Positions 1 to 64,000 of a DNA stretch of 64,000 nt are shown piece after piece (the stretch's first letter is position 1; every line of letters starts with the position of its first letter). The position numbers and the translations under genes are program-made. The DNA is taken from contig OZ024786.1 in assembly GCA_964017065.1 (NCBI GenBank), positions 8,375,047 to 8,439,046 on the forward strand, read 5' to 3'. The stretch comes from Haliclona indistincta. Its lineage: Eukaryota; Porifera; Demospongiae; Haplosclerida; Chalinidae. The notes under the pieces are model-generated. The model had not been told where the DNA came from and made no database searches. It saw only the letters and a program-made list of their open reading frames with translations.

Positions 1-3000
1 TGCACCCTTTGGGTTTTGTGAATTCGCTGTGGGACCCCAATGGTGCACCCTGTGGGTTTTGTGAATTCGCGTTGGGACCCCAATGGAGCACCGTTGGAGT
101 ATTTTGAATTCGCGGTGGGACCCCAATGTTGCACCCTTGGGGTTTTGTGAATTCGCGGTGGGACCCCAATGGTGCACCCTTGGGGTTTTGTGAATTCGCG
201 TTGGGACACCAATGGTGCACCCTTGAGGTTTTGAGATTTCGCGGTGGGACCCCAATGGTGCCCCCTTGGGGTTTTGAGAATTCGCGGTGGGACCTCAATG
301 GTGCACCCTTGGGGTTTTGTGAATTCGCGGTGGGACCCCAATGGTGCACCCTTGGGGTTTTATGAATACGCGGTGGGACCCCATTGGTGCACCCTTGGGG
401 TTTTGTGAATTCGCGGTGGGACCCCAATGGTGCACCTTTGGCTTTTGTGAATTCGCGGTGGGACCCCAATGGTGCACCCTTGGGGTTTTGTGAATTCGCG
501 GTGGGACCCCAATGGTGCACCCTTGGGGTTTTGTGAATACGCGGTGGGACCCCTGTGGTGCACCCTTGGGGTTTTGTGAATTCGCGGTAGGACCCCAATG
601 GGTCACCCTTGAGGTTTTGTGACTTCGTGGTGGGACCCCAATGGTGCACCCTTCGGGTTTTGTTTATTCGCTGTGGGACCCCATTGGTGCACCCTTGGAG
701 TTTTGTGAATTCGCTGCGGGACCCCAATGGTGCACCCTATGGGTTTTGTGAATTCGCGTTGGGACCCCAATGGAGCACCGTTGGAGTTTTTTGAATTCGC
801 GGTGGGACCCCAATGTTGCACCCTTGGGGTTTTGTGAATTCGCGGTGGGACCCCAATGGTGCACCCTTGGGGTTTTGTGAAATCGCGGTGGGACCCCAAT
901 GGTGCACCCTTGGGGTTTTGTGAATACGCGGTGGGACCCCTATGTTGCACCCTTGGGGTTTTGTGAATTCGCGGTGGGACCCCAATGGTGCACCCTTGGG
1001 GTTTTGTGAATTCGCGGTGGGACCCCAATGGTGCACCCTTGGGGTTTTGTGAATACGCGCTGGGAACCCAATGGTGCACCCTTGGGGTTTTGTGAATTCG
1101 CGGTGGGACCCCAATGGTGCACCTTTGGGTTTTGTGAATTCGCGGTGGACCCCAATGGTGCACCCTTGGGGTTTTGTGAATTCGCGGTGGGACCCCAAAA
1201 AAGAACCCTTGGGATTTTGTGAAATCGCGCTGGGAACCAAATGGTGCACCCTTGGGGTTTTGTGAATTCGCGGTGGGACCCCTATGGTGCACCCTTGGGG
1301 TTTTGTGAATTCGCGGTAGGACCCCAATGGGTCACCCTTGAGGTTTTGTGACTTCGCGGTGGGACCCCAATGGTGCACCCTTCGGGTTTTGTTTATTCGC
1401 GGTGGGACCCCAATGGTGCACCCTTTGGGTTTTGTGAATTCGCTGTGGGACCCCAATGGTGCACCCTGTGGGTTTTGTGAATTCGCGTTGGGACCCCAAT
1501 GGAGCACCGTTGGAGTATTTTGAATTCGCGGTGGGACCCCAATGTTGCACCCTTGGGGTTTTGTGAATTCGCGGTGGGACCCCAATGGTGCACCCTTGGG
1601 GTTTTGTGAATTCGCGGTGGGACACCAATGTTGCACCCTTGGGGCTTTATGAATTCGCGGTGGGACCCCAATAGTGCACCCTTGGGGTTTTGTGAATTCG
1701 CTGTGGGACCCCAATGGTGCACCCTTGGGGTTTTGTGAATTCGTGGAGGTACCCCAATGGTGCACCCTTGGGGTTTTGTGAATTCGCGGTGGGACCCCAG
1801 TGTTGCACCCTTGGGGTTTAGTGAATTCGCGTTGGGACCCCAATGGTGCACCCTTGGGGTTTTGTGAATTCGCGTCGGGACAACATAGGTGCACCCTTGA
1901 GGTTTTGTGAATTCGCTTTGGGACCCCAATGGTGCACACTTGGGGATTTGTGAATTCGCGGTGGGACCCCAATGGTGCACCCTTTTGGTTTTGTGAATTC
2001 ACGGTGGGACCCCAATGGTGCACCCACGGGGTTTTGTGAATTCGCGGTGGGACCTCATTGGTGCACCCTTGGGGTTTTGGGAATTCGCGGTGGGACCCCA
2101 ATGGTGCACCCTTGGGGTTTTGTGAATTCGCGGTGGGACCCCAATGGTGCACCCTTGGGGTTTTGTGATTTCGCGGTGGGACCCCAATGGTGCATCCTTG
2201 GGATTTTGTGAATTCGCATTGGGACCCCAATGGTGCACCCTTGGGGTTTTCTGAATTCGCGTTGGGACCCCCATGGTGCACCTTTGGGGTTTTGTGAATT
2301 CGCGGTGGGACCCCAATGGTGCACCTTTGGCTTTTGTGAATTCGCGGTGGGACCCCAATGGCGCACCCTTGGGGTTTTGTGAATTCGCGGTGGGACCCCA
2401 ATGGTGCACCCTTGGGGTTTTGTGAATACGCGGTGGGACCCCTGTGGTGCACCCTTGGGGTTTTGTGAATTCGCGGTAGGACCCCAATGGGTCACCCTTG
2501 AGGTTTTGTGACTTCGCGGTGGGACCCCAATGGTGCACCCTTCGGGTTTTGTTTATTCGCGGTGGGACCCCAATGGTGCACCCTTTGGGTTTTGTGAATT
2601 CGCTGTGGGACCCAATGGTGCACCCTGTGGGTTTTGTGAATTCGCGTTGGGACCCCAATGGAGCACCGTTGGAGTATTTTGAATTCGCGGTGGGACCCCA
2701 ATGTTGCACCCTTGGGGTTTTGTGAATTCGCGGTGGGACCCCAATGGTGCACCCTTGGGGTTTTGTGAATTCGCGGTGGGACCCCAATGTTGCACCCTTG
2801 GGGCTTTGTGAATTCGCGGTGGGACCCCAATAGTGCACCCTTGGGGTTTTGTGAATTCGCTGTGGGACCCCAATGGTGCACCCATGGGGTTTTCTGAATT
2901 CGTGGAGGTACCCCAATGGTGCACCCTTGGGGTTTTGTGAATTTGCGGTGGGACCCCAATGGTGCACCCTTGGGGTTTTGTGAATTCGCGTCGGGACAAC

Positions 3001-6000
3001 ATTGGTGCACCCTTGAGGTTTTGTGAATTCGCTTTGGGACCCCAATGGTGCACACTTGGGGATTTGTGAATTCGCGGTGGGACCCCAATGGTGCACCCTT
3101 TTGGTTTTGTGATTTCACGGTGGGACCCCAATGGTGCACCCACGGGGTTTTGTGAATTCGCGGTGGGACCTCAATGGTGCACCCTTGGGGTTTTGGGAAT
3201 TCGCAGTGGGACCCCAATGGTGCACCCTTGGGGTTTTGTGAATTCGCGGTGGGACCCCAATGGTGCACCCTTGGGGTTTTGTGATTTCGCGGTGGGACCC
3301 CAATGGTGCACCCTTGGGATTTTGTGAATTCGCATTGGGACCCCAATGGTGCACCCTTGGGGTTTTGTGAATTCGCGTTGGGACCCCCATGGTGCACCCT
3401 TGGGGTTTTGTGAATTCGCGGTGGGACCCCAATGGTGCACCGTTGGGGGTTTGTAAATTCGCGGTGGGAACCCAATGGTGCACCCTTGGGGTTTTGTGAA
3501 TTCAAGGTGGGACCCCAACAGTGCACCCTTTGGGTTTTGTGAAGTCACGGTGGGACCCCAATGTTGCTCCCTTGGGGTTTTGTGAAGTCACGGTGGGACC
3601 CCAATGTTGCTCCCTTGGGGTTTTGTGAATTCACGTTGGGACCCCAATGGTGCACCCTTGGAGTTTAGTGAATTTGCGGTGGGACCCAAATGGTGCACAA
3701 ATGGGGTTTTGTGAATTCGCGGTGGGAACCAATTCGAGCACCCTTTGGGTTTTGTGAATTCGCGGTGAGAAGCCAAAGGTGTCACACTTGGGATTTTGTG
3801 AATTCGCGGTTGGACCCCAATGGTGCACCTTTGGGGTTTTGTGATTTCGCTGTGGGAACCAGGTGGTGTACCCTTGGGGTTTTTTGAATTCGCGGTGTGA
3901 CCCCTATAGTGCACCCTGGGTGTTTAGTGAATTCGTGGTGGGACCACAATGGTGCAACCTTGGGGTTTTGTGAATTCGCTGTGGGACCAAGATGGTGAAA
4001 CCTTGGGGTTTTGTGAATTCGCGGTGGGTCCCCAACGGTGCACCCTTGGGGTTTTGAGAAATCGCGGTGGGACCCCAATGGTGTACCCTTGGGGGTTTGT
4101 GAATTCGCGATGGGACCCCAATGGTGCACCCTTGGGGTTTTGTGAATTCGCGGTGGGACCCCAATGGTGCACCCTTGGTGTTTTGTGAATTCGCGGTGGC
4201 ACCCAGCACCCTTGGGGTTTTGTGAATTCGCTGAGGGAACCCAATGGTGCACCCTGGGGTTTTGTGAAGTCACGATGGGAACCCAATGGTGCACCCTTTG
4301 GGTATTGTGAATTCACTGTGGGAACCCAATGGTGCACCCTTAGGGTTTTGTCAATTCGCCGTGGGACCCCAACTGTGCACCCTTGGGGTTTTGTGAATTT
4401 GTTGTGGGACGCAGATGGCGCACACTTGGGGTTTTGTGAATTCGCGATGGGACCCCAATGGTGCACACTTGGGGTTTTGTGAATTCGCGGTGGGACCCCA
4501 ATGGTGCACCCTTGGGGACCCCAATGGTGCACCCTGGGGCTTTTGTGAATTCGCGGTGGCACCCCAATGGTGCACCCTTGGGGTTTTGTTAATTCGCGGT
4601 GGGACCCCAATGGAGCACCCTTGGGGTTTTGTGAATTCGCGGTGGGACCCCAATGGTGCACCCTTGGGGTTTTGTGAATTCGCGGTGGCACCCCAATGGT
4701 GAACCCTTGGGGTTTTGTGAATTCGCAGTGGGACCCCAATGGAACACCCTTGGGGTTTTGTGAATTCGCTGTGGGACCCCAATGGTGCACCCTTGGGGTT
4801 TTGTGAATTCGCGTTGGGACACCAATGGTGCACCCTTGAGGTTTTGTGAATTCGCGGTGGGACCCCAATGGTGCACCCTTCGGATTTTGTGAATTCGCGG
4901 TGGGAACCCAAAGGTGCACCCTTGGGGTTTTGTGAATTCGCGTTGGGACCACAATGGTGCACCCTTGGGGTTTTGTGAATTCGCAGTGGGACCCCAATGT
5001 TGCACCCTTGGGGTTCGTGAATTCGCGTTGGTACCCCAATGGTGCACACTTGGGGTTTTGTGAATTCGCGTTGGGACCCCAATTGTGCACCCTTGGCGTT
5101 TGCGGTCGGACTACAATGGTGCACCCTTGGGGTTTTGTGAATTCGCGGTGGGACCCCAATGGTGCACCCTTGGGGTGTTGTGAATACGCGGTGGGACCCC
5201 TGTGGTGCACCCTTGGGGTTTTGTGAATTCGCGGTGGCACCCCAATGGTGAACCCTTGGGGTTTTGTGAATTCGCAGTGGGACCCCAATGGAGCACCGTT
5301 GGAGTTTTTTGAATTCGCGGTGGGACCCCAATGTTGCACCCTTGGGGTTTTGTGAATTCGCGGTGGGACCCCAATGGTGCACCCTTGGGGTTTTGTGAAT
5401 TCGCGGTGGGACCCCAATGGTGCACCCTTGGGGTTTTGTGAATACGCGGTGGGACCCCTATGTTGCACCCTTGGGGTTTTGTGAATTCGCGGTGGGACCC
5501 CAATGGTGCACCCTTGGGGTTTTGTGAATTCGCGGTGGGACCACAAAAAGGAACCCTTGGGATTTTGTGAAATCGCGCTGGGAACCAAATGGTGCACCCT
5601 TGGGGTTTTGTGAATTCGCGGTGGGACCCCTATGGTGCACCCTTGGGGTTTTGTGAATTCGTGGTAGGACCCCAATGGGTCACCCTTGAGGTTTTGTGAC
5701 TTCGCGGTGGGACCCCAATGGTGCACCCTTCGGGTTTTGTTTATTCACGGTGGGACCCCAATGGTGCACCCTTTGGGTTTTGTGACTTCGCGGTGGGACC
5801 CCAATGGTGCACCCTTCGGGTTTTGTTTATTCGCTGTGGGACCCCAATGGTGCACCCTTGGAGTTTTGTGAATTCGCTGCGGGACCCCAATGGTGCACCC
5901 TATGTGTTTTGTGAATTCGCGTTGGGACCCCAATGGAGCACCGTTGGATTATTTTGAATTCGCGGTGGGACCCCAATGTTGCACCCTTGGGGTTTTGTGA

Positions 6001-32358: not shown

Positions 32359-33032
32359 AATGGTAAAGGGGTATTAGAGACATTTAGATTTACACGTTTT
32401 TGACCTGTACGTGTACGCGTAACGTGTAGATGATCACGTGAGCACCGCCCACTCACGCTACACGGTCGAGCACACGTCAATTTCCCCCGTTCTTAACGTG
32501 TAGGACCCCTTCTACAGGTCGGCCGTTTCCCTGTAGTTCCTGTTGCTCAAGATTCCGTCAGCTCCACGTTTGTTATAGCTAAAAATGTAGCTTGATGCCT
32601 GCTCTATATGTTCGACTAGTTAAAGCGCTGATACGTGCTGTCTGTCACCTGCAGCACTCGACAGAACAGAAGTAACCATAGATTCACTTACCGCTCGCTA
32701 TCCAACTGCACTGCTGGAAGCTCATCTGTGGCAGCAAACTTGTGCTGGCAGTTGTTTATAGCGTTTGAAATCTGTTTCAAGCCATGTCTTGGTGCAAAAC
32801 CTGGAAGTTTGTAGCCGCCTCGCCACAAGTAAAAACCACAACTGTAGAATCTAAATCGCCACTGGAATTTCCCCTGTAACGTGAAACGCGAGTTACAGTT
32901 TACAGGTCACGGCTGTTTTTGGCTAATTGAAATGTGGACATTTAGACACACCCCCTGTAATTTCAAACGTGCATAGCAACACATAGCAACCAACTTCCGG
33001 TCCGTTTTTAAACTGTTCTGTGTGACTTTCAC

Positions 33033-33263
33033 GTGACTGTCCAACCAACGTGGCGAAGACAATCGAGGAGAAGGAAAGCTGCTCTTTCTCTCGGAGCAAA
33101 AAGCGTATCAATAGCTGAAAGTACGGCGGAGTTACAAGTTCAGCGCAAGGGGAAAAGGTCTTACAATAAAAGAAGACATAGCGCAAGATCCTACTTGATC
33201 CAAGACGTCGAAAAGGAACGGAATCAAAGGTTAGCTAGTGTGCTATCAGGTTGTAGTAACTAA
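33033..33263 (+). CDS. small basic ORF inside the N-RAG-type element, unknown
   Basis: A 76-codon plus-strand ORF, rich in Arg/Lys/Ser, starts with ATG and lies between the left terminal region and the 3' end of the RAG1-N-like gene, on the opposite strand. A GT follows a CAG near its end, so it could be a first exon, but no partner exon was found. I recognise no domain. It may be a second element gene or chance. Confidence 0.22.
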   Translation: MTVQPTWRRQSRRRKAALSLGAKSVSIAESTAELQVQRKGKRSYNKRRHSARSYLIQDVEKERNQRLASVLSGCSN

Positions 33264-33386
33264 TAGCTGTAACCTTTTTTCTCCCGCATGATATGGCGCT
33301 TTAAAAGGACAATATTTAGACGTGCGTTAATGTGTTTCCCCAACAATGTTTGACACTTTTTGTGCCTTACTTTGACAATACTAGAC

Positions 33387-34805
33387 TTATGTATGTGCAT
33401 TAAGCGAGTCTTCTTCTCTAGGTCTTTTCTTGTATTGTTTTTGAGCTGGCTGTAAGTCATTCAGCCCTGGTGCTGACTCAAGATTGTGCTCATTAAACAC
33501 GTAGCGTAGCTTTTGAAGTGGGTTGACGATTCCACAATATGTGGTCTCTAGTCGTCCTATATGGGCATGGATAGACTCTGCTCCCTGCTCTCCCATGAGT
33601 CCAGCACCTATCTTCCACCTCTTCATCCACTCCACCACATGGTCTTCCAAGATATGCATCTTGGGTAAGATGGTAGCATTTGGGAAAAACTCTCTATAAC
33701 TGCTCATGAAGGTCTTGATGTCCTTTTCTGTTTGTATAAAGATTAATAATGAAACATGTGGTTTTTAAATTTACCTGAGTTTATCTATTTGTTCATCAGT
33801 GACTGCCCCTCCACTGTAGCCTTTGTAACAGCTACTGTACTGCTTTAGAATGGTTTTAAAGGTAACAGTGACAGAATTTGCATCCTCTAGTAGCCCTATA
33901 CAATGCGTGTTTGCCACGTCAAGGATGCCGGAGCAGATGACATTGATGGATGGTTCCTATGTCACATGTAATAGATTTCTGTAGTGTATTATGTCTTTCG
34001 TTACATGTACCTGAAGCAGCTTATGCACATGGTTCCCTACAAAGGTAGCCCCGTGGTAAGCCTGTCGCTCCACATGCAGGGCACCAAGTGATGTATTCAC
34101 ACTAGCCAGGAAAGGGCCATCTTTTGGTGTTGCCTTCTGAAGAACTTCCTCTGCAGCACTAACTTCCAGGTTCTGTTTATAACATGAAATTATTGTGTTG
34201 AATATTATAACTTGTTCTATTACCTTTCTAGTGACCAGGTGTTGTGTGTTCCTAAACTCTTCCTGCACTTGCCTGAGTGTGACATTTTGGTCTGGTGCTG
34301 GTAATGTGACAATCAAATATGTGGCTATCTGGTTTAACGCTGATGCTCTCGCTTTCAGCTTTAACTGCTCCTCTTTGAGGTGAGCTAGTCTCTGCGCAGT
34401 TGTAATGTACTGATTGTACGTGGCTCAGCAGGCATGGCAGTACCCTCAATATGCTTGCATACCTATAATGGATGCATGATTTAGTAAACCTGTTTTGTTC
34501 TATACTTACAGTGCAATCATCAATGATGTGTTCTGTCCAGTTGAAAAGAGTGATAGAGTGCCTGTACAGGACCCCTTTGGACACAGCAGCCTTCTTTTTA
34601 CGGGTAGCGGCACAACAGGAGTTGCAGAAGTATGCCGGATGGATAGCGGGAGAGTCTAGCTTTACCACCAACCCAAAAGTGGTTTCCAGTGCCTCCTGAT
34701 AACTCAGACAGCTATATTTTGGGTTCCTCCTCCTTGATCTTTCTAATCTGCCCCCACACACTCTGCAGTGTGCACTGAGCTGGTGCATTTCTGCCATTCT
34801 CTTGC
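33387..34805 (-). CDS. spliced protein with RAG1-type N-terminal zinc domain and conserved GEQGAESIH C-terminal module
   Basis: Five exons with short introns: 34805-34510, 34462-34224, 34172-34011, 33956-33775 and 33727-33387 (stop TAA), all GT-AG. From the ATG at 34797 the first exon reads CRVC (C11, C14), IHPAYFCNSC (H53, C58, C61), W87 and H90; the last Cys pair CTVC (C95, C98) is formed across the first splice junction. This spacing (CxxC, IHP-x3-FCxxC, W-x2-H-x4-CxxC) is the pattern of the zinc-binding N-terminal region of vertebrate RAG1. Later exons contain GATFVGNHVHKLLQ, PKMHILEDHVVEWM and GLMGEQGAESIHAHI, a module I recall from uncharacterised invertebrate proteins. Exon 2 is 239 nt and changes frame near 34420, consistent with one lost base. 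The length is about 400 residues after repair. It may have an upstream exon, because an acceptor-like TTGTAG precedes 34805. The RAG1-N call is by motif only. Confidence 0.75.
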
Positions 34806-35589
34806 CTACAATCACCAAATTTGTGTATTTTATAAGCCGTTGTATTACTCGTTACAAAAAAGGTTACACTTCCATTTGTTTATCAATCTCTTTAGTAATG
34901 CTTACTTTAGCAGCAGGTCAATGATATTCACTGTGATCTAAGTACACTTCCGCTCAATCACCTCCTCAAGTACCAGACCACAACAATTCTTCACGATTGT
35001 GATTGCAGCTGTGTTGTTTTTGTGCATGCGCAGTAGTGTATGAATGGTGTTATGGGTGCGCACTACCGCTAGTACTAGTTGTAGTGGTTGTATGAAGTGG
35101 CTAATGGACAATTTTAAGTACTAAGGTAACCAAGTAGCGTGCAGTAGCAACCGCTAGACACTGGTTGTTCTTGTGTGCGCACGCGGCTAGATTAAAGCAA
35201 TACCGTAATAAATTTTTATTGTTTTAATTACAGACTAAATGTCCACAAAAAAACAGCCGTGAGGTTACACGTTACGCGTAAAACGTGTAAATCTAAAAGT
35301 CTCTATTATTACTTTCACATCATCCCATGGACCCCTGTCACGTGATAAGTAGTTTTAACCCTGTTGCATCATTAAAACGCATGGTCCATATCTGTTCGTT
35401 TCTCGGTTCGTTTCACGCGAGTTTCTAAGTGTGTTCCACTACTTCCGCTGCTGTCACAACCTTCTTACGACACGCGTTAGGAGTTCTATGTTATCTGAAG
35501 CTGCCAGATGATTCTTCAGCGCCTAATTGTAGGTTCGTAATTACAATGGTGCAAGCAAACTCGCTCGTGTCTTTAATCATTGTCAAGTT

Positions 35590-38500
35590 TTACAAAACTT
35601 CTGTCATTATAGACTCCTGGCCAGTGAGAAGAGGAAGAGTTTGACACACTGTACCAGTGTCACTATCTACTACACGGTCATAGTGAGTGTTAGTGTGATA
35701 CAGCAACTCCAAGTGTGTATAGGTACACGCACTTCTGTGACAAATTCATCCACTAGGTATGGATATGTCAGATTAGCCTCTGTTGGTAGGATGATGTGCC
35801 ACCTGTACTCCCCAGTTACCAATCTTTGCAGATAGTACACTGGAATTTTTAGATAAGTAGCAGTAGCTTCGATTTCAACATTGGTTCCCCATTCATATGG
35901 CATGAGCATCTTGCGAATGTGTTCATCTATAGTACTGTTGAAGACCTTGTTCTTGAACACCTCTTTGTTCAGGTTAACGAACCGTACCAGCATGTTGCGA
36001 ATCTCGCCATGATGCTCCTCAGTACCTGTCAGCTGGTAGGACACCGCTCTGAATAAACAATTTCCATCGCCTTTAATACGATAGATTGTTCTGGAACTTG
36101 CACTCAACAATTATTCCAGACTTGTTTCTGGCTTGTTGCAACTCTAAAAGTAATACATACATTGTGATGAACCACATAATTTATATCATAATTGTTTTCT
36201 TTACCTTGTCAACCATTGACAGTGAATCAGTAGAATCAATTTCTGTAAAAGGTACATAATAGTATGGTACATCATATGATCATACTACATTCAGGCTTGT
36301 CCCAATTAAAGCCAGCACCAATTTTACCTGTTGTTAAGGCAATTGTTGCCTCTGAGTGACGATGACTTGTGTTACTTTGTAGACAGCGACGTTGAGTGCA
36401 GCATTGCTTCTTGCGTCCTGTACCACCAAATTGCTTTAGGTCTTTGCAGTTAGGGCACTTCCCACAATTTTCACTTTTACAGCCATCACATTCACCACAC
36501 CTTTTCCTTTTTGTTCCTTATCAAGTGGTGCAATACAATGTTATTTTGTACACAATAATTCTTGGTTTACCTGGTCTTGTTTGTTGTGCACTGATTCTCA
36601 TGTTCCTGTACTTCTTCAGTGTTTTCTGTGCAGCCTATACAATACAAATAATATGTATGTCCTACATGCATCAGTCTTTACCTCTCGTAGTGTCTGAGCT
36701 TTTTTTCCTACTCTGTTACTGTAAGCAGCTTTTTTCCTTCCTCGCCTAATCTGCAGTGGTAGTTCTTGAGTATGTTGCAATTTATGACTGATCTTCTTTT
36801 GTCTTGCTAACTTTAGCTCTTTTCTCAACTGTGGTCTAAGGAGTAGGCCTTCGTGTTTAGGTAATTTTGAATTGAAGCTTTTCGTGATCTGTAGCAAGTG
36901 CTGATGTAGATCTTGTAGATCTTCAATATTGTCTTCTGTACTAGAGTAGGTCAAGGTTGTCAGTGTTTTCAGTGTTACTCGAACTTCTTGAGCTATCTTG
37001 TCTGCTGACCTTTTTGTCCTACGTGTTGTATAGAATCAACAATAATGATGTAATAAGCCTTTCCCAATAAGACGATGGAATGTATGGGTGGAGTTAATTA
37101 AACGTGACGTCACTTCCGGAGTACCAAAGCAACTCCACTAGCGGCTGTAATGTATGGGAGTGATTGAGAAAATGGTCGAACTTTGAGCTCACCGTACTCA
37201 AGCTGGGTTTTGATTATTCTTGTTAAATTCGGTTAAGTTTGGGTGCACAAGCCTGGCTATTAATACGAACTAAAATCAGCACGATCGTGCTTGGTTGAAC
37301 GGCAAAACAGCGATGGCAGAAATAGCTGTATAACTGGAAGGAACACGTTACTGAAAGAAGCACAGGTTTGGGGAAGCGCCAACCATATGCGAGCAGTTCC
37401 GCTTTGTCGGTGTAGAGTGTTTAGCGCCGGTAAGCAACGGTATAACAAAGGCAAAGACGAGGATAAGCTTGCTACCGCGTACAGTTGCGCGGTGTGTTGG
37501 TAGTCACGAACAACGGTTGTTTACAGCGGGAAGAACACTAGTACAGCTTGCTACAACGTTAAGCAGAAGTGCAGTAGTGTGCAGCGCCAGCAGTCATTGT
37601 CGTTAGTGAAGTAAAACCAAAATGAGTGATCGCTACAGCATGCATCTATGTACCCTGCAGCGCTGGTTGTCAACGTAGATCACGTGTGAAATTCATAGCA
37701 AAGAATAGCCAAAGTATCGCCAATTACACTAGCGGAGTTTTAAAACTTGTGCCTGAAAGGTGTAAGAGCATGCGCAGTCTAAAGTTCGCCTATTTTAGGC
37801 TATTTTCTCAATCGCTCCCATACATTACAGCCGCTGGGAGGAGCTAAATGGGACTCCGGAAGTGAATAGGCCATTCCTACTAAGAGCCTAAAGAATTTAA
37901 TTAGCGATATTGGCTAGCGTAATTGGCTTCCGGGCTAGCTGGGGTGTGAGATGATTACGTAAGCGCTAAGATTAATACACGAATTTATATGGGGCTTATG
38001 GGAGAGATCGCGATACTTTCGACATCTTTGTAGTGCTCTCCGTAAACTGGACAACCGCGTGGTCTTGCTGCTTGTGTTCCTCTGCCTTCGCTCTGTCGAA
38101 CGCAAAAGACTACGCGTGCACTGGCAACAACGTTTTGGACAAACAGGCGCGCAAAGAAGGCCTACTTGCACTATAGAACAAGCTAACAAAGGACACAGTC
38201 TCCACAGATCAAGTAACCACTGGCAGCAGTACCTGCACGCAGTATACTCTTACAGTATCCAGCGTTACAAAATTGTTTCTCTCTAGAAAAATGCCCAACA
38301 AGCTTGCCATACTTAGCGTAACTTGGGCCTGTTTGCGCGCCCGTTTCTCCAAAACGATGTTGCCAATGCACGCGTAGTCTTTTGCGTTCGACAGAGCGAA
38401 GGTAGAGGAACCCAAGCAGCAAGACCACGTGGCTGTCAAGTTTACGGAGAGCACTACAAAGATGTCGAAAGTATCGCGATCTCTCCCATAAGCCCCATAT

Positions 38501-40987
38501 AAATTCGTGTATTAATGTTAGCGCTTACGTAATCATCTCACACCCCAGTGCTGTGGCCAGCAGAGCGGTGTGCCCACGCATACATTCCACGCATACTTTG
38601 CTCTTACTGGGAGTGGCCTATTCACGTTCATTAACGCTTAATTACATTCTTTAGCCCGTTATTGGGAAAGGCTTATTGTTTGTGTGTGTGTGTGTGTACC
38701 TTTTGTGGAATTTCTTGAAATTGGGTCTCATTCTGTTCTCCATCAGTTTGTCCTCTACTATCCATACCAGCTGTGTCCACTTCTTGTTGTGCTGTGTTGA
38801 CATACTGTTCTATAGCTGCTGTGTCCAAGGTCAAATATGGAGAATTCAAGTACTCTGTTGGGAGACGTCCCCAATACCAGTCTGGATGGAGTCTAAAGAT
38901 GGCAAAGAAATGCTTGCAAGGTATTTTGTGATTTAGCCAGTCCTTGCATGAGCAGGATGGTTCTCCAGAAGTAACACCAAAATCAGTTGTGTGTACAATC
39001 GACCCCTTTCCCTTTACACTGAATCTGCCTTTGTCTTCCAAGCTGCTGACATCTGCATCTGCAATTGCATTGCTTTTAGCTTGTCGGTGCAAACAATGCA
39101 GTATTGTTGCCTTAGGACGTCCTTGAAGGTAGTCAGGTACAATAGCAGGGTTGTACGTACGGTACATGCCGGACTGTTTGAAGTTCTGATAAATGTATTT
39201 GTTGTGCAGAGCAGGAAGGAACTCCTCGATGATGGTAGTCATGATGTCCGAAAGTGTCATGTGTTTTCTTCTCGGCAAGTACTTGTACTTCAGTACACGA
39301 TTTAAAGCCTCTGCACCATTGTTTGTCTCAACTGCACCATGATACGAGGTGTCTCTGTATGCTCTTGCCCATCTCTAGGAAATAACAATGCAACATAATC
39401 ATTATCAAGTATTATTTTGTAGCTATACCTTTGATACACTCAGCCAAGTGTTAGTCACCCACTGTCTTACATTCTCATTACTCTTCCACAGGTTTGATTG
39501 TTTCAGTATTGTCACTGCTTGCTGGAACTGATGGTCAACAGGCATGTGTTCGTCAGAAGAGGATGGAGCCCATGCACATGCTCTTAGCTGACTAAGAAGC
39601 CATTCGGCATCAGAGGTACTCAATCCATGCTTCTTCTCTCTGACCCACCTTTCCCATGCCTGCTCACGATGGAAATCACACAAATATACTGTAGTACCTG
39701 GGAAGGTTGCTTCTAGTGCTGCTATCTCAGCTTCCGAGTAGTCCGTCATAAAATACGTGGGTTGCCAACTTGGATTCCATTTCTTGATGACGTCGAGAGC
39801 CTCTGTCACATGTTCAGTTGATTCCGATTGAACTACAAAATCTGCTACGACGCAATACCCCGAATTTGTTCGTACACTAATAAAAAATAGTGGCAGCTCG
39901 TACCTTGTTGTTTTGTAGGTAGCATCCATTAATGCAATCGTGTTGCCGTATTTTGTCATCAGTTGTTGCTGCCATGGCTCTTGGTGCACCCACAGCAATG
40001 TCGTCTCGGTATGCTCTTCTCTCTCGCTGCTACATGTATACGGTCGGAACAAAAATTTAGCCTCTGGACAAAGAGCCTTCCACTGGTCTACTTTTAATGC
40101 CGCATTCTCTTGATCGATTATTGATAGCTTGAGACTGCTTAGCTCTGTTGACATGATTTCTGACATCGTCTACCATGGGAAAGTAAGACCGATCATTTGG
40201 ATCTGGTGGGTTAGTATGCATTTGGCTGCGCACATGGCTTCTCAGCAAACGCTGCACTACTGTTGGATCAGTAAAGCCAGTTTGAACAAGCTCGTGAATC
40301 TTTATAATAATCTCTGGGTGGATACGCTGGGAAAACCCCATTGCTCCTTTTGTTGGATGGCACATGCATGTGATGTGCCTCTTCAGTTGGGAGCCTTACA
40401 TAGTACATTTGTGTGACCTTGCCTGGATTACCTGCCTCTAGTGCCTGCCGCAATGATTGCATCAGTCCCTCCTTCAGTTTGCGAGCTTGTTTTTGTGACG
40501 TGGTGGGTGTTATTGACGTTATGCTGTAATCGGGATACAAAGTTAACTCTGTGATTTCAACGTGTGCTTTACACCCCTTCTTCTTGCTCCCTTGTAGGCG
40601 TGTTCTGGTGCTCTTTGGTGGTGACGGTTTCTTGTAGAGCTGACCATACTGGCAATCAAGGAGTCTTTTGGAGGCTACACTAAATGGTGCACCAAACTGA
40701 AGTTTATGAGCTCCAAAAGAGTGTGTCCAGTACAGCCGCTATCATGAGATTGCATGTTATGTTATTGTTATTATAATAAATTATTGTACCTTTTTGATCT
40801 GCTTGACATCCGTATCCGAGTTATCTTGGGTCTCATCTTTGGTGCAACTACGGCTGCTCCTTGTACCGAAAGTAGAGACCGTATCACGCTTGTGTGCCTC
40901 AAGAACACTGTTCAAGTCACTGCTGTCTACAGTCCCCTCAAAGTATAACCCTCTTTGGTAAAGGCCTGTTCTCCAAGACGATGTCAT
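35590..40987 (-). CDS. MULE transposase with SWIM, CXXC zinc finger and OTU protease domains (frameshifted)
   Basis: Exons read from the minus strand: 40987-40790 (ATG start, 66 codons), 40738-39429, 39374-38700, about 37019-36682, 36634-36571, 36516-36328, 36242-36205 and 36141-35590. Exon 2 has the MULE core: Asp in MDATYKTTRY (codon about 39926) and Asp in FMTDYSEAE (39743). Exon 3 supplies Glu in GAVETNNGAEALN (39329) and a SWIM finger, CSCKDWLNHKIPCKH. Exon 4 is a basic linker. Exon 6 is a CXXC finger (RCGECDGC...CGKCPNC...KQFGGTG...KQCC), the unmethylated-CpG reader fold of DNMT1/MLL. Exon 8 has an OTU cysteine protease: GDGNCLFRAVSY (Asp, Cys) and LELLYHTNTHYDRV (His). Single-base frame changes occur near 40370, 40125, 36080 and 35715. 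Exon 2 is 1310 nt, exactly two bases over a whole codon number, fitting two 1-nt insertions. The exon 3-4 junction phase is unresolved because a 1.6-kb insert fills that intron. Confidence 0.85.
37054..38675. mobile_element. palindrome-rich TIR element in intron 3 of the MULE gene
   Basis: The ends are perfect 17-bp inverted repeats (TAAGCCTTTCCCAATAA at 37054-37070 and its complement at 38659-38675). The target duplication is not clear because the flanks are themselves palindromic (AAT/ATT). It lies between MULE exons 3 and 4, immediately next to the exon 3 donor. Inside are a second inverted pair (CGGCTGTAATGTATGGGAG at about 37142, complement at about 37813-37832) and the long hairpin 37939-38548, so at least one nested insertion is likely. 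No coding potential was recognised. A (GT)n tract (38676-38699) separates it from exon 3. Confidence 0.7.
37939..38548. repeat. long inverted repeat (~230-bp arms, ~150-bp spacer)
   Basis: The left arm from 37939 (CTGGGGTGTGAGATGATTAC) matches the reverse complement of the right arm ending at 38548 for about 230 bp with only scattered mismatches, for example shared CTTTCGACATCTTTGTAGTG and AACGCAAAAGACTACGCGTG. A transcript across it would fold into a long double strand. It lies within the intron insert of the MULE gene. Confidence 0.88.
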
Positions 40988-42336: not shown

Positions 42337-43172
42337 TTTAGAACGACTCTCCGACGATCCTTAGGGTTACCAAGGGCCGAAGGCCTGGGTTAGGACACCC
42401 CTCCCGACTTTGCACAGTTAGGAAAAGGTTTTTTAGGGTTGAGGGTTTAGGGTTTAGTAACCAGGCTGACTACAAACAAGTAATTCTGAACGCGCAGTTA
42501 AAAGCTAATTGCACGTGACTTCCGTACTTCAACTGTTGTGAATTTAGAGACACCTGATTTGAAAAAGGAGCGGGCCAATAATGGTTGCAAATGACTAATT
42601 ATTAATCATTTATTCATGAGATTCAATTTATTCATTACAATTTGCTTTGCGTCTTGTGAAGTTGTGCTACTACAATGTCATAAATTAATAGTGCTGGTAT
42701 AATAATAAAAAATTAATTATGTTATACAATGATGATGCAGTTATATAAGTGCATGGGTGCATTAATTGTAGTCAATGTTAACTAGTCTGCTAGTGGATTT
42801 GCCATAAGAAGCCTTCTGGCGAATGTTCATGCTGCCAACACAGGGCTGCTTTGTCGATCTCTTGGAACTTCGACCTCTCTTCATGGTTATAGGCTTGATA
42901 CTACAGTACTAGTAGTCCCCAGCTAGCTGCTCATCATGTATATGTATGAGCTCGTGCGCTTGTTAACGATTGAGAGGCGTGGTAATCAATAAAATGGTCA
43001 TAAATTATTTAAACGTGCTCGCGAACGGGGGGAATTGGCCCCCCGATTCCCCCTGGATCCGCCACTGGATGGTACAGGAATTTGCAATGTTCTTGCAACG
43101 CGGCAAGCGAAGCGAGAATGCCACGCCCATTTTGACCACGTGAAATTCTGAACGCGCGCTTTTACGTTTGAA

Positions 43173-44162
43173 ATGACTTCCATTGAATCAACACGAAGCA
43201 GCGCCTACAGTGAAGATATTCGCTGGCGGATGGTTTGGCAAACGGAAGCCCTTGGACACAACTATTCGGAGGTAGCGAGGAACTTGTGTGTTGATCAATC
43301 AACTGTCTGTAGGACTGTTTCCTTGTTTCATGAAACTGGAAGGGTCACAAAGAGGTCTTATCCGAAAGAAAAAGCCCACAGAATACTCACTACACCAGCT
43401 CAGCTTCTTATCCTCCATCTCGTCTGTCAAACACCTGGTATTCTTTTACGTGAAATCCAAACTAGTTTACTGCAAATTCTATTAGTGGATGTCAGTATTT
43501 CGACGATTTGCAGGTTTCTGTACAAAAGTGGTTTCACTAGGCAGAAGTTAAAAATCACAGCTTTGCAACGAGATGAATTCCTTCGTCAGAGATATATACT
43601 TGACATGTCTATGTATTCTCCTGAGATGCTGATTTTCGTAGATGAAACAGGTGCTGATCTGAGGAACACTATAAGAAGATATGGGTATAGTATTCGTGGG
43701 AAGCCTCTGACTAGTCAAGTTATGCTTGTACGAGGAGAAAGGGTTTCAGCCATTGCATGCATATCTGTTTCAGGCCTATTGGATGTGATGACTGTGAAAG
43801 GTACAACAGATGGAGATGATTTTTACAAGTTTGTTCAAGAGTACTTACTACCACACCTAATGCCCTTTAATGGCATAAACCCACAGTCCGTGGTGATACT
43901 CGACAACTGTTCGATCCATCATATTGTTGAAATTGTCCGATCAATTGAAGATGTAGGGGCACTAGTACACTTCCTCCCCCCATACTCGCCAGACTTGAAT
44001 CCGATTGAAGAAACCTTTTCAAAAGTGAAGTCAATTTTAAAATCCACTGAGATCGACACAATTGGCATGACTGATGTAGAAGATTTGCTTCTAGCTAGTT
44101 TTACACAGGTTACCCAGGAAGACTGTGAAGGCTGGATCTCTCATAGTGGAGTGTATACATAG
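43173..44162 (+). CDS. DD34E (Tc1/IS630-type, DDE_3) transposase
   Basis: A single exon encodes 329 residues, starting at the ATG 98 bp inside the left terminus. Residues about 12-60 form a helix-turn-helix DNA-binding region (YSEVARNLCVDQSTVCRTVS), followed by a second HTH-like segment to about 125. The catalytic core shows D157 in LIFVDETGAD, D244 in VVILDNCSIHH and E279 in LPPYSPDLNPIEE, with 34 residues between the second Asp and Glu, the DD34E spacing of Tc1-like and IS630-like enzymes. The expected role is end recognition and cut-and-paste transposition into TA, matching the observed flanks. Its 3' end faces the accessory gene. No frameshift or internal stop was seen. Family assignment is strong; the exact clade is not determined. 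Confidence 0.93.
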   Translation: MTSIESTRSSAYSEDIRWRMVWQTEALGHNYSEVARNLCVDQSTVCRTVSLFHETGRVTKRSYPKEKAHRILTTPAQLLILHLVCQTPGILLREIQTSLLQILLVDVSISTICRFLYKSGFTRQKLKITALQRDEFLRQRYILDMSMYSPEMLIFVDETGADLRNTIRRYGYSIRGKPLTSQVMLVRGERVSAIACISVSGLLDVMTVKGTTDGDDFYKFVQEYLLPHLMPFNGINPQSVVILDNCSIHHIVEIVRSIEDVGALVHFLPPYSPDLNPIEETFSKVKSILKSTEIDTIGMTDVEDLLLASFTQVTQEDCEGWISHSGVYT

Positions 44163-58286: not shown

Positions 58287-59955
58287 TTATAAAGTCTTGC
58301 TAGCATTACGAGATAGATAAAGCAATCGATCATCTTCTGTACGACGCTCAATAAACCTTTGACTTTTAGAAAGGTTGGCTACACGTTGATAATCAAATGG
58401 AGGGTCAAAGACAAGGCTACTGAGAGTGCGCACGCATGACAATGCAACAAATGTGAGCCCTACACAAAACTCTTTAGTACCAATATCCAGAACTACCTTG
58501 TCTAATGTTAGACCCTGTGCTTTGTGTATTGTAATTGCCCATGCCAGCTTCAATGGAAGCTGTAACCTAGAACAAGCACTACTCCCACTCATCCATGACC
58601 GACGAAGAGGAACTATAGGTACTGTACCATCTGATAGTGTGGGACCTGTGTATGCATCAAAATGAACCATCACAGCTGTTGGTAGTGCAGGACCTCCACT
58701 CTGGTAGCATATTGCCTGAACTGTTCCCATGGCACCATTCACCAGTCCAGCCTCCACCCACAAGTTAGATATGAGCATCACTCTGGCACCTTTAGCTATG
58801 TGAATCACTGCCTCTAGTCCACTTGCATCATCTGAACTGGCCTTATCAGCTCTTGGTCCACTATGAACTGCCTTGATCTGTGCTACAGGATGACTACACT
58901 TCTTAAGTTGATTTATATTACGCTCAGCTACACTTTCTACTGTAGGAGTGCATTAGTAAATGTGGGCAATTCACTTACGCGTGCAGCACTTCGAGTCATC
59001 AGATACTGCCAGTCATCAGTTGTCAACTTGCCATCTCTTAGAGACAAGAGCATATCCCTGAACCTTATCTGCTCAGGATCCTCTCCAGCCTGTCGCATTA
59101 CTTGAGTGAGAACTACTGCTTTGTCAAAGCACTGATATGCTGTACTACCCAAATCAGAGAGAGCTGATCTGGTATCAGATGAATACAACGGTAGATCCAT
59201 CACAGGAGGAAGCTGCCCAAAGTCACCAAAGAGAAGACATGAACTCCCTCCCAGTACCTCATCAGCATGGTGTGGAAATGCTTGTTGAAGACGCTTGTCA
59301 ACTTGTCCAAAAATTTTCCGCCCCACCATAGACATCTCGTCAATTATGTACTTGACCTCAGCAAATGATTGCTGCAAACTCCGAAGCCTGTCTCCTTCTA
59401 AATCTTTAAAGTCACCCCTTGTAGGCAGAGAGAGTAGTGAATGTAGTGTGCAACCATGTACATTGAATGCAGCTACTCCTGTTGGTGCTGCTACCTTTAC
59501 CCGTTCTCCCAGCAACCCTCTCAAGCAGCTGATGAGGAATGACTTACCAGTGCCAGCTGTACCAGACACAATGGTTCTACCCTATCTGACTCAAGATGAG
59601 CCTGTACGTCCTGGTTGTAGTTGCTTACTCTGTAGTAGCTGAGGGTCATTGGTGTTAGTATGTGCAATCCTTACCTGAGTTTCCTTATGCTTGGTGATGA
59701 AACGAGGACACTCTTCTAGATTGGGATAGGCCAAACCTGCTTCCAGCCAGTTCACGTCTTCAATCTGAGTCTCGCCATTTTGACCAAGTTGTGGACAGCT
59801 TTGGCAAATAAGCATCCATTCCTCCACCTCCCTAGTATTAGAGCTACTCTCAAGAGTGTTCTCCTCGTTTTCACTTTCATTATTCACATCACTCTCTCTA
59901 GCTAGCTGTATGAAGGTGTCAATGTCATCCTGTAAGCATGGGGGTGCATTGCTTG
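58287..59955 (-). pseudogene. PIF1-type helicase, frameshifted (Helitron-like or captured)
   Basis: Helicase superfamily 1 motifs appear in order on the minus strand: Walker A SGTAGTGKSFLI near 59560, APTGVAAFNVHG, Walker B IIDEMSMVG, LLFGDFGQLPPV, VVLTQVMRQ, then ARVMLISNLWVEAGLVNGAM and LKLAWAITIHKAQGLTLD with TFVALSCVRTL near the end. The region upstream (about 59955-59640) is acidic and reads PPCLQDDIDTFIQLARESDV. Frame changes occur between about 59640 and 59570 (probably two) and near 58940. PIF1 helicases of this kind are found in Helitrons, but no Rep/HUH nuclease or Helitron terminus was seen here, so a truncated Helitron, or a relocated host-type helicase copy, are both possible. 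Confidence 0.8.
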
Positions 59956-60850: not shown

Positions 60851-63322
60851 TTACAGCTGAATGCCAAAGAGTTCTCTCAGTGCGTCTTTGTGAGCCCTTT
60901 GCAGTTGCTCGAGTATTTCAGGTGGTATTTGCAACTGCATTGGTACAAACCAGCTGCAGCGTAGCCACACACAGTTGGGATTAAAGTGGTAATACACGTT
61001 GCCGAAGCGACTTTGTGTTCCACTTGGAGAACTTGGAGCCGAATATTCGCGCCATTCCTGGTGCTTAATGCATAAATCATCGGGAGGGGTAGCACGCTTA
61101 GTATAGTTGTTACGGCATCCAATACAAACCTTTATATTTCCTGATACTTTGCACAAAATAAAGGGATGTGAAGGAGGAGCTGTAGGTGACGGATAGCAAT
61201 AGGAAGGTGGATGCTGCCAAGTTGGTTGTGGAGAAAATGGAGGAGGATAGTAAGATTGTGATGGCCAACTGTTATAAGATTGGACCTGTCCCTGTACCTG
61301 AGGAGAAGCACTATAAGATGGACTGGCATATGAGCGGAGCTGTCCCTGGACTTGAGGAGAAGCATTAGAAGGACCGGCTGGCGATTGTTGCTGCTGAATC
61401 TGTGAGTACTGTTCGCTCAGTGCTGGGTTTTCTATCGTCATTTCTACCGTAGCACTGTCAGATTTCGATTTCCGTCGTGGTGCTACATTTCCTTTGCGGC
61501 CTCTTCCTTTGGGCATGGTTGCTTCGGCAAAGCTGGTGGTCTTTGGATTCTTCTTCGCCTGCTTAAGAGCTTTAATTTGCTTAGGAAGGTTTTGGTTCTG
61601 TTCAGCAACAGCAATGGCATGGGCAAAAACACCCAGGGCTTTCCAGTTTGGACAGTCTGCATCACATGCAAAAGTGCCACCTTTTTTTGGTACAACAAGG
61701 TGTGGCCTCTTTCCACTATAACTAAGAACAAATTTGCCACCCACAACCCCTGGAGCTTGAGATATTGCATTTTTGGTTTTTAAAAGCTCTGCAGCTTTGC
61801 TCCAAATTCCTTCTAAGCATGGTCGTGGAATACGAACTTCAGATGCGAAACTATCAACGTGCACTGATAAAGTAGAAGAGAGTGTATTGTCTCGACCAAT
61901 GCAAAGCTCATTTATTTCACTCTCATTAACATCGCTAAGAGATGCAGCTGCAAATTTGTTGAGATGTGAAGTCCGCTGGCTCTGACTCATTGAAAACCAC
62001 TTGGTTTCAGGGACGTACCAAGAACGATATTGACTGCGTAGCTCAAACTTTCCTCGTCCTATAATCGCTTTCTCAACTTCACGCTGTTGATCTTCAATTA
62101 ACTGCCGTAACTTGGTCAGAAATTCTGAAAGCTCACTCTTTTTGTAATTGACCTTGTGTTTCAGCAAGTAGTTTGCTGTCTCTGACGCATTAGTTGTAAA
62201 TGCTGTTGGTGGCGAACCAAGCCCACACTCTTCTCTGACCACTGCAATCATGGAATCCCGTATAACTGGCATTTTGAAGGTTTGAAACCAGTTAATGAAA
62301 CCCTCAATGTCGCTTGCACTAGTGTGTTCAGAATTCCTCCATTTTTCCAGCAACTTGCCTGCTTTCTCTTCAAAATCTTCTGTGTCAATGGAGTCGACAA
62401 GCCCCTTAACATAAACTGATCCCATTTTCTTTCCAAAGATGTCATCAAGCATCTCATTACTAAGGTGTGAAGAGATATTGTACTCACAGAGCTTGTCCCT
62501 TACATTTCTACGAACATGAATAAAGCATGTAAGATGCTGGGCGAAGCCAAATTCATGTTTAAACGCATCAATTAACGCTAGCTCTCCATCTGTTCCTATC
62601 GCTCGGACGCCTGCCAAATCTCGACATTGCCCAACAATAGTAGAAGCAAAAAAAAGATATGTCGAAAAAGATTTTTTGTAGTGAATACAAGCAGGACCGA
62701 CGAGCACAGGTGGTTGCTGGAATCGTTTCGACTGAAGGAATAGGTGGCGTGTGGTGATTAACGTCACATCAAAATCTCCAAGACAAAACGTGGGGTCAAC
62801 CGTTAAAATGGAAGACTCGAAAGAAGAAGTGCAAAATCTGGCAAGATCATGAAGCTGTGAATTAGTGGCAACTACAACAGCAGGTTCAGGAGCTGCATTA
62901 ACGGCTCTTATGAATTTATGTGTGGGATCGTCAGAATAAGCTTGTTGCATAACTGAAAAAAGCTCGTCGTCAGCTGCGCTAGAGACAGAGTGTTTAACCT
63001 TCTTTTTAAAATTAGACACCTGCTTAGCATCTCGGGGTAATTTGCCTGGAGCAGAGGCACCAACAATCCCACCAGCACTCACTGAAACAGTAGACACAGT
63101 ATCATCAGGTCCCAGAGTGAGACATTCTTCCTTTATTCGCTGTTTAGTGCTGGCCCATGTTGGATGAAAAGGAATATGTGACTTTGAATTTCCATGCTTT
63201 TTGATGGAAGGTGTGAATCCAGGTGGAATGCGATAAACAACCAAACAGAGGTGATGTGGAGAATTTTTAGCATCTGTATGGTTAGAAAAAAAAGTGTTTT
63301 CAAAGTGAATAATGAAAATCAA
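60851..63322 (-). CDS. MULE-like transposase, long single-exon body (823 codons open)
   Basis: The frame is open for 823 codons. The true 3' exon probably begins at 63272, because a T-rich tract ending CCATACAG precedes it; residues 1-16 of the open frame are then intronic and the N-terminal exon was not found. The conserved N-region has VSAGGIVGASAPGKLPRDAK. Candidate catalytic residues are D176 (LTVDPTFCLGDFDV), D245 (IGTDGELALIDAF) followed by CFIHVRRNV, and E381 (TTNASETANYL). A SWIM-like segment, ACDADCPNWKALGVFAHAIA (C553, C557, H568), lacks the usual second-pair Cys, with Phe at 566. A Pro/Gln/Ser-rich linker (640-720) leads to a C-terminal Cys/His module (C724, C733, C736, C751, H754) and NVYYHFNPNCVW. 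Related long proteins are, from memory, common in sponge and cnidarian genomes. No TIR was found. Confidence 0.82.
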   Translation of the reverse strand: MIFIIHFENTFFSNHTDAKNSPHHLCLVVYRIPPGFTPSIKKHGNSKSHIPFHPTWASTKQRIKEECLTLGPDDTVSTVSVSAGGIVGASAPGKLPRDAKQVSNFKKKVKHSVSSAADDELFSVMQQAYSDDPTHKFIRAVNAAPEPAVVVATNSQLHDLARFCTSSFESSILTVDPTFCLGDFDVTLITTRHLFLQSKRFQQPPVLVGPACIHYKKSFSTYLFFASTIVGQCRDLAGVRAIGTDGELALIDAFKHEFGFAQHLTCFIHVRRNVRDKLCEYNISSHLSNEMLDDIFGKKMGSVYVKGLVDSIDTEDFEEKAGKLLEKWRNSEHTSASDIEGFINWFQTFKMPVIRDSMIAVVREECGLGSPPTAFTTNASETANYLLKHKVNYKKSELSEFLTKLRQLIEDQQREVEKAIIGRGKFELRSQYRSWYVPETKWFSMSQSQRTSHLNKFAAASLSDVNESEINELCIGRDNTLSSTLSVHVDSFASEVRIPRPCLEGIWSKAAELLKTKNAISQAPGVVGGKFVLSYSGKRPHLVVPKKGGTFACDADCPNWKALGVFAHAIAVAEQNQNLPKQIKALKQAKKNPKTTSFAEATMPKGRGRKGNVAPRRKSKSDSATVEMTIENPALSEQYSQIQQQQSPAGPSNASPQVQGQLRSYASPSYSASPQVQGQVQSYNSWPSQSYYPPPFSPQPTWQHPPSYCYPSPTAPPSHPFILCKVSGNIKVCIGCRNNYTKRATPPDDLCIKHQEWREYSAPSSPSGTQSRFGNVYYHFNPNCVWLRCSWFVPMQLQIPPEILEQLQRAHKDALRELFGIQL

Positions 63323-64000
63323 TAACTAGAAAAATAAAGAACTGTGTGTGACTCTAACGACACATGCACATTATAAACAGACAAACTCAAAAACTTTTAA
63401 CCCTCCCGCATAATGCGCATAATTTATTATAAAATATTGTTCTGTGTATACGCAATGCATATCTGAGATCGAATACAAGCTATCACGCGATGACCATCTG
63501 TTCAAAACTATATACCCTCCACAAGTAATAAAAATTACACTTTAACAAAAATGGAAGAGGTGGCGATTTCAGTAAAAAGTATGAAAACAAGATTGCTGTA
63601 AAAGGTAAGTAAGCAAGATCGGTAAAGAAGAGAGCATATAATAATAATTTAGCCATAATGCTACACAAGCACGCTATCCAAAGTGGTCAGTTTAGGGAGG
63701 TAGCATAATGGCTAATAGTAATTACTGCAGCAATATTGTTTGTTGTTTTCATGTTAATGTTAACCCTAATTTACCGCATTCCACAGACATCCTGTTTTGT
63801 TATTGGGTGTCAGTGAGATAAGCTTAATTGTTGTACTCCCATGGAGAGTTGGTATATAGTCTACCTTTCTGTTTCCAAAAAGCACCGTACATGTAAATCA
63901 AGCCCCCTCAAATAGATGTCGACACCAAGGGTATTTCCAAAAAATAAAAAAACGCCTATTATTATTATTTTTTAATGCACTAAAATATAATTTTAGATGC
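63323..64000. other. no gene recognised; upstream side of the transposase
   Basis: AT-rich sequence that should contain the missing first exon and promoter of the 60851-63322 gene, but no convincing exon was found. A 61-codon minus ORF (63483-63668) is hydrophobic and unsupported. Confidence 0.45.

Follow-up and report, generated by a model that had tools for sequence, protein, structure and literature searches.

A RAG1-like N-terminal zinc domain in a nested, probably non-autonomous Chapaev transposon of the sponge Haliclona indistincta

The 64,000-nucleotide (nt) stretch of the sponge Haliclona indistincta analysed here (assembly GCA_964017065.1, contig OZ024786.1, forward-strand positions 8,375,047 to 8,439,046; hereafter the window) contains inverted ends, near positions 32375 and 35305, which enclose a spliced gene that begins with a zinc domain like the N-terminal one of RAG1. 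An earlier note on this DNA had read ends and gene as one TA-flanked transposon of the N-RAG-TP group, from a family carrying the RAG1 N-terminal domain without the RAG1 catalytic core. The question that this locus raises is whether ends and gene really belong together and whether the core is foreign to the family. We found two elements, one inside the other. The inner one, which carries the gene, is very probably a non-autonomous Chapaev (a cut-and-paste transposon of the CMC/Transib clade), flanked by AGGT and lying in a miniature inverted-repeat transposable element (MITE); it would be a deletion derivative of an autonomous Chapaev of ~4.4 kb, moved in trans. The assignment to Chapaev follows published descriptions of its features.

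In this genome (144 Mb, 46 contigs) the 24.9-kb contig C46 carries a cox1 with an unbroken frame when TGA is taken as Trp (four codons); among the 120 matches listed for it, the highest is an unnamed protein (91%), Demospongiae lead the named clusters (85%) and named cnidarians come next (82-83%), so that the host is, by this gene, most likely a sponge. The genome was searched with 32375-35305 as the query and 40 of the 152 candidates were scored, so all the copy counts given here are lower bounds. The query resolved into two independent repeats. In all five other fetched loci with the outer ends (L017-L021, among which L019 and L020 have common flanks) the outer parts are joined into a gene-free element of 570-571 bp, and these uninterrupted MITEs contain AGGT once, at the point where the inner element has split the window copy. 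The gene-bearing inner element, for its part, recurs in L002-L007 without the outer ends. The inner element is inserted, with an AGGT duplication, into a pre-existing MITE, and the nested parts are the following:

32376-35304, no strand: outer host element, a ~570-bp MITE with AGAGAC...GTCTCT ends, which the inner element interrupts (5 uninterrupted loci)
32904-32907, plus: left AGGT target-site duplication of the inner element (single AGGT in uninterrupted MITEs)
35262-35265, plus: right AGGT target-site duplication of the inner element (single AGGT in uninterrupted MITEs)
32908-35261, minus: inner element of 2354 bp, very probably a Chapaev made non-autonomous by deletion (at least 6 other copies in the genome, of which 3 are identical to it)

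Regarding the single transposon of the N-RAG-TP group, the outer ends do enclose the gene in the window, and N-RAG-TP is described as consisting wholly of RAG1 N-terminal-like sequence (available text of PMC8355894). Nevertheless, ends and gene recur apart, the inner element is bounded by ends and by a 4-bp duplication of its own, and complete relatives of the gene do have the core, as we describe below. As far as the ends are concerned we rejected this reading, to which as a whole we give hardly any credence, because of the separate recurrence, and the earlier note had itself named such a separation as the observation that would speak against it. The inverted ends themselves stand. All six MITE copies read, that of the window included, allow a TA beside these ends, although a 3-bp ANT duplication fits the MITEs of the window, of L019/L020 and of L021 equally well (it does not fit L017 or L018). 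Adjoining the nested insertion there is also an OTU-like cysteine protease frame (35670-36110, minus strand).

The copies of the inner element are very alike: L002, L004 and L005 are identical in sequence to the window copy, L003 and L006 are one base apart from it and L007 has a 4-bp insertion, the differences among the seven copies lying at element positions 81, 2198 and 2264. The element starts with CACGGC and ends with GCCGTG, and inverted termini of the Chapaev type, 5'-CAC...GTG-3', are present in it and in its relatives, L012 having one altered terminus (CAAGG); in families F1-F5 CAC was a search condition for the ends. Duplications of 4 bp flank seven of the eight loci L001-L008 (AGGT, ACCA, AGGG, CTAC, ATAT, CTTT and TCTC) and were also found in L009-L013, L062, L063, F1, F1b and F2-F4. 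F5 shows a 4-bp duplication as well, which was itself a ground for accepting its ends. This length lies within the 3 to 4 bp of Chapaev target-site duplications and differs from the 5 bp of Transib and ProtoRAG. It might be argued that the gene is a domesticated RAG1-related host gene and not a mobile element, for which nothing beyond the RAG1 likeness can be adduced; it is contradicted by the broken frame and by the dispersal of seven near-identical copies, of which six are flanked by 4-bp duplications, and we rejected this explanation, which has next to no chance of being right, on the copy structure. A sister type of copy (L008 and L010-L013) continues into the RING and the zinc finger and has lost the catalytic Asp. 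Two of these, L008 and L012, lie ~14 kb apart on contig C4 with common flanks and the TCTC duplication, L012 having an extra insertion besides the altered terminus, and they are probably a segmental duplication.

What the gene encodes can be read from its remnants:

34510-34797, minus: exon 1, first part of the RAG1-like N-terminal zinc domain (Chapa/NTD, the N-terminal domain; Pfam match)
34385-34462, minus: exon 2 remnant, which finishes the last CxxC, spans the deletion junction and reaches a stop (predicted product 121 aa)
34422-34429, minus: deletion junction, ~2.0 kb internal loss (comparison with L062)
34224-34409, minus: transposase exon remnant, equivalent to L062 exon 8
34011-34172, minus: exon 9 remnant (GATFVGNHVHKLLQ)
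33775-33956, minus: exon 10 remnant, with one extra donor base relative to L008, which breaks the frame to exon 11
33387-33727, minus: exon 11 remnant, with H(4)H (33665-33639) and the catalytic-Glu motif GEQGAES (from 33593)

The profile search that the earlier note had proposed gave a match of the spliced exons 1-2 to Pfam RAG1_imp_bd (E-value 4.9e-7, 30 bits against a cut-off of 23.3), and this match marks the beginning of the protein as a homologue of the N-terminal zinc region of RAG1. A chance likeness, which the note had argued against because the last CxxC is complete only after splicing, is made unlikely by the score; the completion by splicing, the placing of exon 1 (34797-34510, minus strand) and of exon 2 (from 34462, minus strand) and their GT-AG junction were all right. 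In the zinc pattern, CxxC, FCxxC and W-x2-H-x4-CxxC were read correctly, whereas the spacing after IHP is x2 and not x3. The full exon structure which the note took to be readable is not there, since exon 2 runs into a stop past the junction, at 34385, and the later exons are what remains of the 3' part of a larger transposase gene, with a +1 break near 33775; the extra exon-10 donor base that makes this break is missing in L008.

Comparison with the complete relative L062 shows that the window copy keeps element positions 1 to ~829 and ~2861 to 4392 and has undergone an internal deletion of ~2.0 kb, the immediate parent not being found among the fetched loci. The RING and the zinc finger went with the deleted part, as did C(2)C, LH and the two catalytic Asp. 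The C-terminal half, which the earlier note suspected of being the enzymatic part, is indeed the end of the core, as PKMHILEDH and GEQGAES correspond to H(4)H and the catalytic Glu; these are kept but out of frame, at the junction and again through the exon-10 donor base. The frame being broken and the core mostly deleted, the window copy does not supply its own transposase.

The complete relatives in the same genome carry a RAG1-type catalytic core, to which the predicted fold of a homologue also points, so the absence of the core is not a trait of the family, as the note had supposed, but a loss of most of it by deletion in the window copy. L062 measures 4392 bp, is flanked by an ACAT duplication and encodes 958 aa in 11 exons, modelled by hand from GT-AG borders and comparison with L063; L063 measures 4333 bp and has an AGAT duplication. 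Residues 26-247 of the L062 protein align collinearly with mouse RAG1 143-377, RING included (E 2.9e-12, on sequence alone), and a profile built from six N-termini reaches RAG1 101-378 (E 2.5e-30). In the core, the motifs follow in the order GGDKG, SGDYEF, CLWC, LH, HILEDH and GEQGAES, that is, the L062 protein has the DDE together with the C(2)C, LH and H(4)H of Chapaev, and the window copy retains just H(4)H and the Glu. These residues are highly conserved in an alignment of 30 of 40 homologues (gaps excluded from the counts): D 30/30, D 28/28, C 24/25, C 24/24, L 19/19, H 20/20, H 26/27, H 28/28 and E 25/25. L062 and the copies of the L008 type have the Chapa domain with a RING after it, the mark of the RING subgroups of Chapaev; from the window copy the RING has been deleted. 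Each of the 30 Chapaev-type transposases that were scanned has a match to the Pfam family DUF1280 (domain of unknown function), which in L062 covers residues 369-528 and spans the first catalytic Asp. In a viral contig set, 62 pattern matches were obtained in a search for Chapaev relatives and none was confirmed.

In our reading, an autonomous Chapaev of ~4.4 kb, with a protein RAG1-like from end to end, has very probably lost ~2.0 kb internally, and a full-length relative with matching terminal 13 bp would have mobilised the derivative in trans in a recent burst. We infer the recent mobilisation because there are at least seven near-identical copies, and a relative with matching ends is most likely the one that moved them. 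Judging from fold and residues, the transposase probably works in the manner of RAG1 and Transib, with a DDE active site of the RNase-H type that would cut at CAC ends held in synapsis.

Several observations weigh against this reading. L062 is only 84% and 69% identical to the window copy over the two kept parts; L014 and L015 come closer (~96% and ~95%), over ~838 bp and with the 3' part unmatched in the fetched stretch, and none of the fetched loci held an element that was full-length, intact and close to the window copy. Copies L004 and L063c have no 4-bp duplication, and the RING Pfam models score below their cut-offs. The folded protein, moreover, was a crinoid homologue (P0016) and not the sponge protein, with a mean pLDDT (predicted local distance difference test) of 74.9 and a low-confidence stretch at 517-562, which may be a mis-annotated insert.

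Another conceivable role for the derivative is that it acts through the predicted 121-aa product, which has the N-terminal domain only, for instance as a regulator in trans of the full-length transposase. The KP derivative of the P element is such a trans regulator. All seven window-type copies keep the frame of this domain up to the junction, their differences falling outside it, and the L008-type derivative keeps the domain, the RING and the zinc finger while losing the catalytic Asp. However, the window-type copies are not old enough for selection to show and the 5' part may have been retained just because it preserves the ends, so we regard this role as improbable.

Turning to the ends of the non-autonomous Chapaev, each has a CACGGC box at its terminus and, farther in, a second motif, which lies 11-12 bp deeper at one end, much as in a 12RSS and a 23RSS (recombination signal sequences, RSS, whose spacers measure 12 and 23 bp):

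35235-35261, minus: 5' (short) end, CACGGCTGTTTTT, then GGACATTTAG from nt 18
32908-32945, plus: 3' (long) end, CACGGCTGTTTTT, then GGACATTTAG from nt 29, 11 bp deeper

Both ends were located in nine families (window, L062, L063, L009 and F1-F5). F6 and F8, with one end only, were left out, as were F7, F2b and L063b, in whose fetched stretches no ends were located; F1b and L063c belong to families that are counted through other copies. In eight of the nine families the second motif begins at nt 17-18 of one end and at nt 29 of the other, an offset of 11-12 bp. With leave-one-out profiles, whose motif starts were placed by eye, both ends were found in six of the nine (at most 2/1000 shuffles as good), at an offset of 11 in four and 12 in two. 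Genome-wide, the pattern CACGGCYGTTTTN{3,18}GACAYTWA, which allowed lengths of 23-38, gave 40 matches and its reversed control none; 20 matches measure 25, 26 or 28 nt, the other 20 measure 36 or 37 nt, and none lies between. A short and a long end are paired in all 16 two-ended elements, eight matches being single. Since a single family supplies 11 of these 16 elements, as copies of the window or L008 type, the independent evidence is the family count and not the 40 matches. The pattern had no match in the viral contig set.

As a sequence feature, the inner motif stands at either of two fixed distances from the terminus, which differ by about one turn of the helix, and an element has one end of each kind. 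These ends resemble the 12RSS/23RSS geometry and the asymmetry may serve synapsis. The ACA of GGACATTTAG, at nt 20 and 31, coincides with the start of the RSS nonamer, an observation made post hoc to which we give no weight.

Not every family conforms, and the exceptions count against a shared asymmetry. F1 has no end motif. In F2 the profile missed the 5' end (103/1000 shuffles as good) and was weak at the 3' end (93/1000), an identical 10-mer standing nonetheless at nt 18 and 29. F5 has an offset of 11 with a weak 3' end (74/1000), and its ends were accepted on an 8/13 match plus the 4-bp duplication. In the single-element shuffle test L009 (171/200) and L063 (47/200) were not significant, whereas the window copy and L062 gave 0/200.

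The asymmetry could also be inherited baggage without function. The families are related, so the positions may be shared by descent, F1, F2 and F5 are missing or weak as just described, and invertebrate RAG-like transposases are expected to be relatively insensitive to end asymmetry (PMC7204232, as far as its available text goes). Nevertheless, protein identity to the window family falls to ~40% (N-terminal segments, F2-F4) and the spacers differ, yet motif and distance persist, and the genome-wide ends fall into only two length classes. We consider a functionless inheritance quite conceivable, short of an even chance. That Chapaevs with the complete RAG1 layout (N-terminal domain, RING, zinc finger and core) are bound and held in synapsis at a pair of unlike ends, a short-spaced and a long-spaced one that differ by 11-12 bp, we put forward tentatively and with some doubt; a geometry of the 12/23 type would then have existed in a sponge transposon lineage without visible RAG2. 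If this is true, the RAG1 N-terminal region and asymmetric signals are old joint features of the Chapaev/Transib clade and not late additions, and elements like N-RAG-TP are deletion by-products and not building blocks. Likewise, if the asymmetry is functional, the origin of the 12/23 rule becomes testable in a compact and apparently recently mobile element.

Elsewhere in the window, the minus strand at 603-5744 is a minisatellite-like repeat of ~5 kb, open in several frames and encoding repeats of the 'ANSQNPKGAPLGSHREFTKPQGCTIGVPPRIHKTPRVHHWGP' type. A MULE transposase domain and a SWIM zinc finger occur in adjoining open frames at 38673-40169 (minus), and a 336-aa open frame at 43152-44162 (plus) with HTH_23 and DDE_3 is presumably a Tc1/IS630-like transposase. 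A PIF1-like helicase extends across two overlapping frames at 58287-59581 (minus), which we take as possibly that of a Helitron; finally, a single 824-aa open frame at 60851-63325 (minus) has no Pfam match at E up to 0.001.

Among known systems, the element agrees with those published Chapaev families in which a RING comes after the Chapa domain. The available text of Kapitonov and Koonin (2015, PMC4411706) names the Chapa domain, describes two Chapaev subgroups in which a RING follows it, as in RAG1, and infers the fusion to be ancestral, and the window element joins this known kind on that description. Shared with these Chapaevs are the RAG1-like N-terminal zinc region, the RING and the transposase core, and in the complete relatives DDE, C(2)C, LH, H(4)H, CAC/GTG ends and 4-bp duplications. 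The order D-D-C(2)C-LH-H(4)H-E is described for Chapaev and relatives in the portions available of PMC12730594 and PMC4079192, and nothing on a RING in Chapaev was found in those of PMC3630058. The window copy differs in being a deletion derivative and in coming from a sponge, and an end asymmetry of 11-12 bp was not found mentioned for Chapaev in the literature searched (available text of PMC4411706, PMC12730594 and PMC4079192). As far as this literature goes, both that asymmetry and a worked deletion route to an N-terminal-only element are new. Chapaevs with internal deletions and a recent burst are known, such as GarfieldN1_BM, which arose directly from a full-length Chapaev (PMC4079192, in part); Garfield, however, is a Chapaev3 with 3-bp TWA duplications, whereas here they are 4 bp and varied and the RAG1-like N-terminus is kept.

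The resemblance to RAG1 with its 12RSS and 23RSS has limits, as the duplications are 4 bp here and 5 bp there, the inner motif is GGACATTTAG instead of a nonamer, and no second (RAG2-like) gene was noticed in the three forward frames of the 4.3-4.4-kb elements L062 and L063, where no kelch profile search was made. In most Transib families, unlike here, the ends are symmetric, and the spacers of ProtoRAG measure 27/31 bp and its duplications 5 bp, against the 4 bp found here (PMC8289069, in part), and in canonical Transib transposases the core is the sole domain (PMC4411706, in part).

Regarding the Aplysia N-RAG-TP (Panchin and Moroz 2008; known to us from its description in the available text of PMC8355894 and PMC13337447), the likeness lies in a mobile element of RAG1 N-terminal-like sequence, and no match in our homologue searches bore that name. 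A review of June 2026 (PMC13337447, in part) still derives the RAG1 N-terminal part from this separate transposon. The window copy shows that an N-RAG-TP-like element can arise by deletion, the N-terminal-only coding element here being the product of a deletion in a family with the whole RAG1 layout. Therefore, the inference of a separate N-RAG-TP source for the RAG1 N-terminus is weakened, in agreement with Kapitonov and Koonin (PMC4411706, in its available text).
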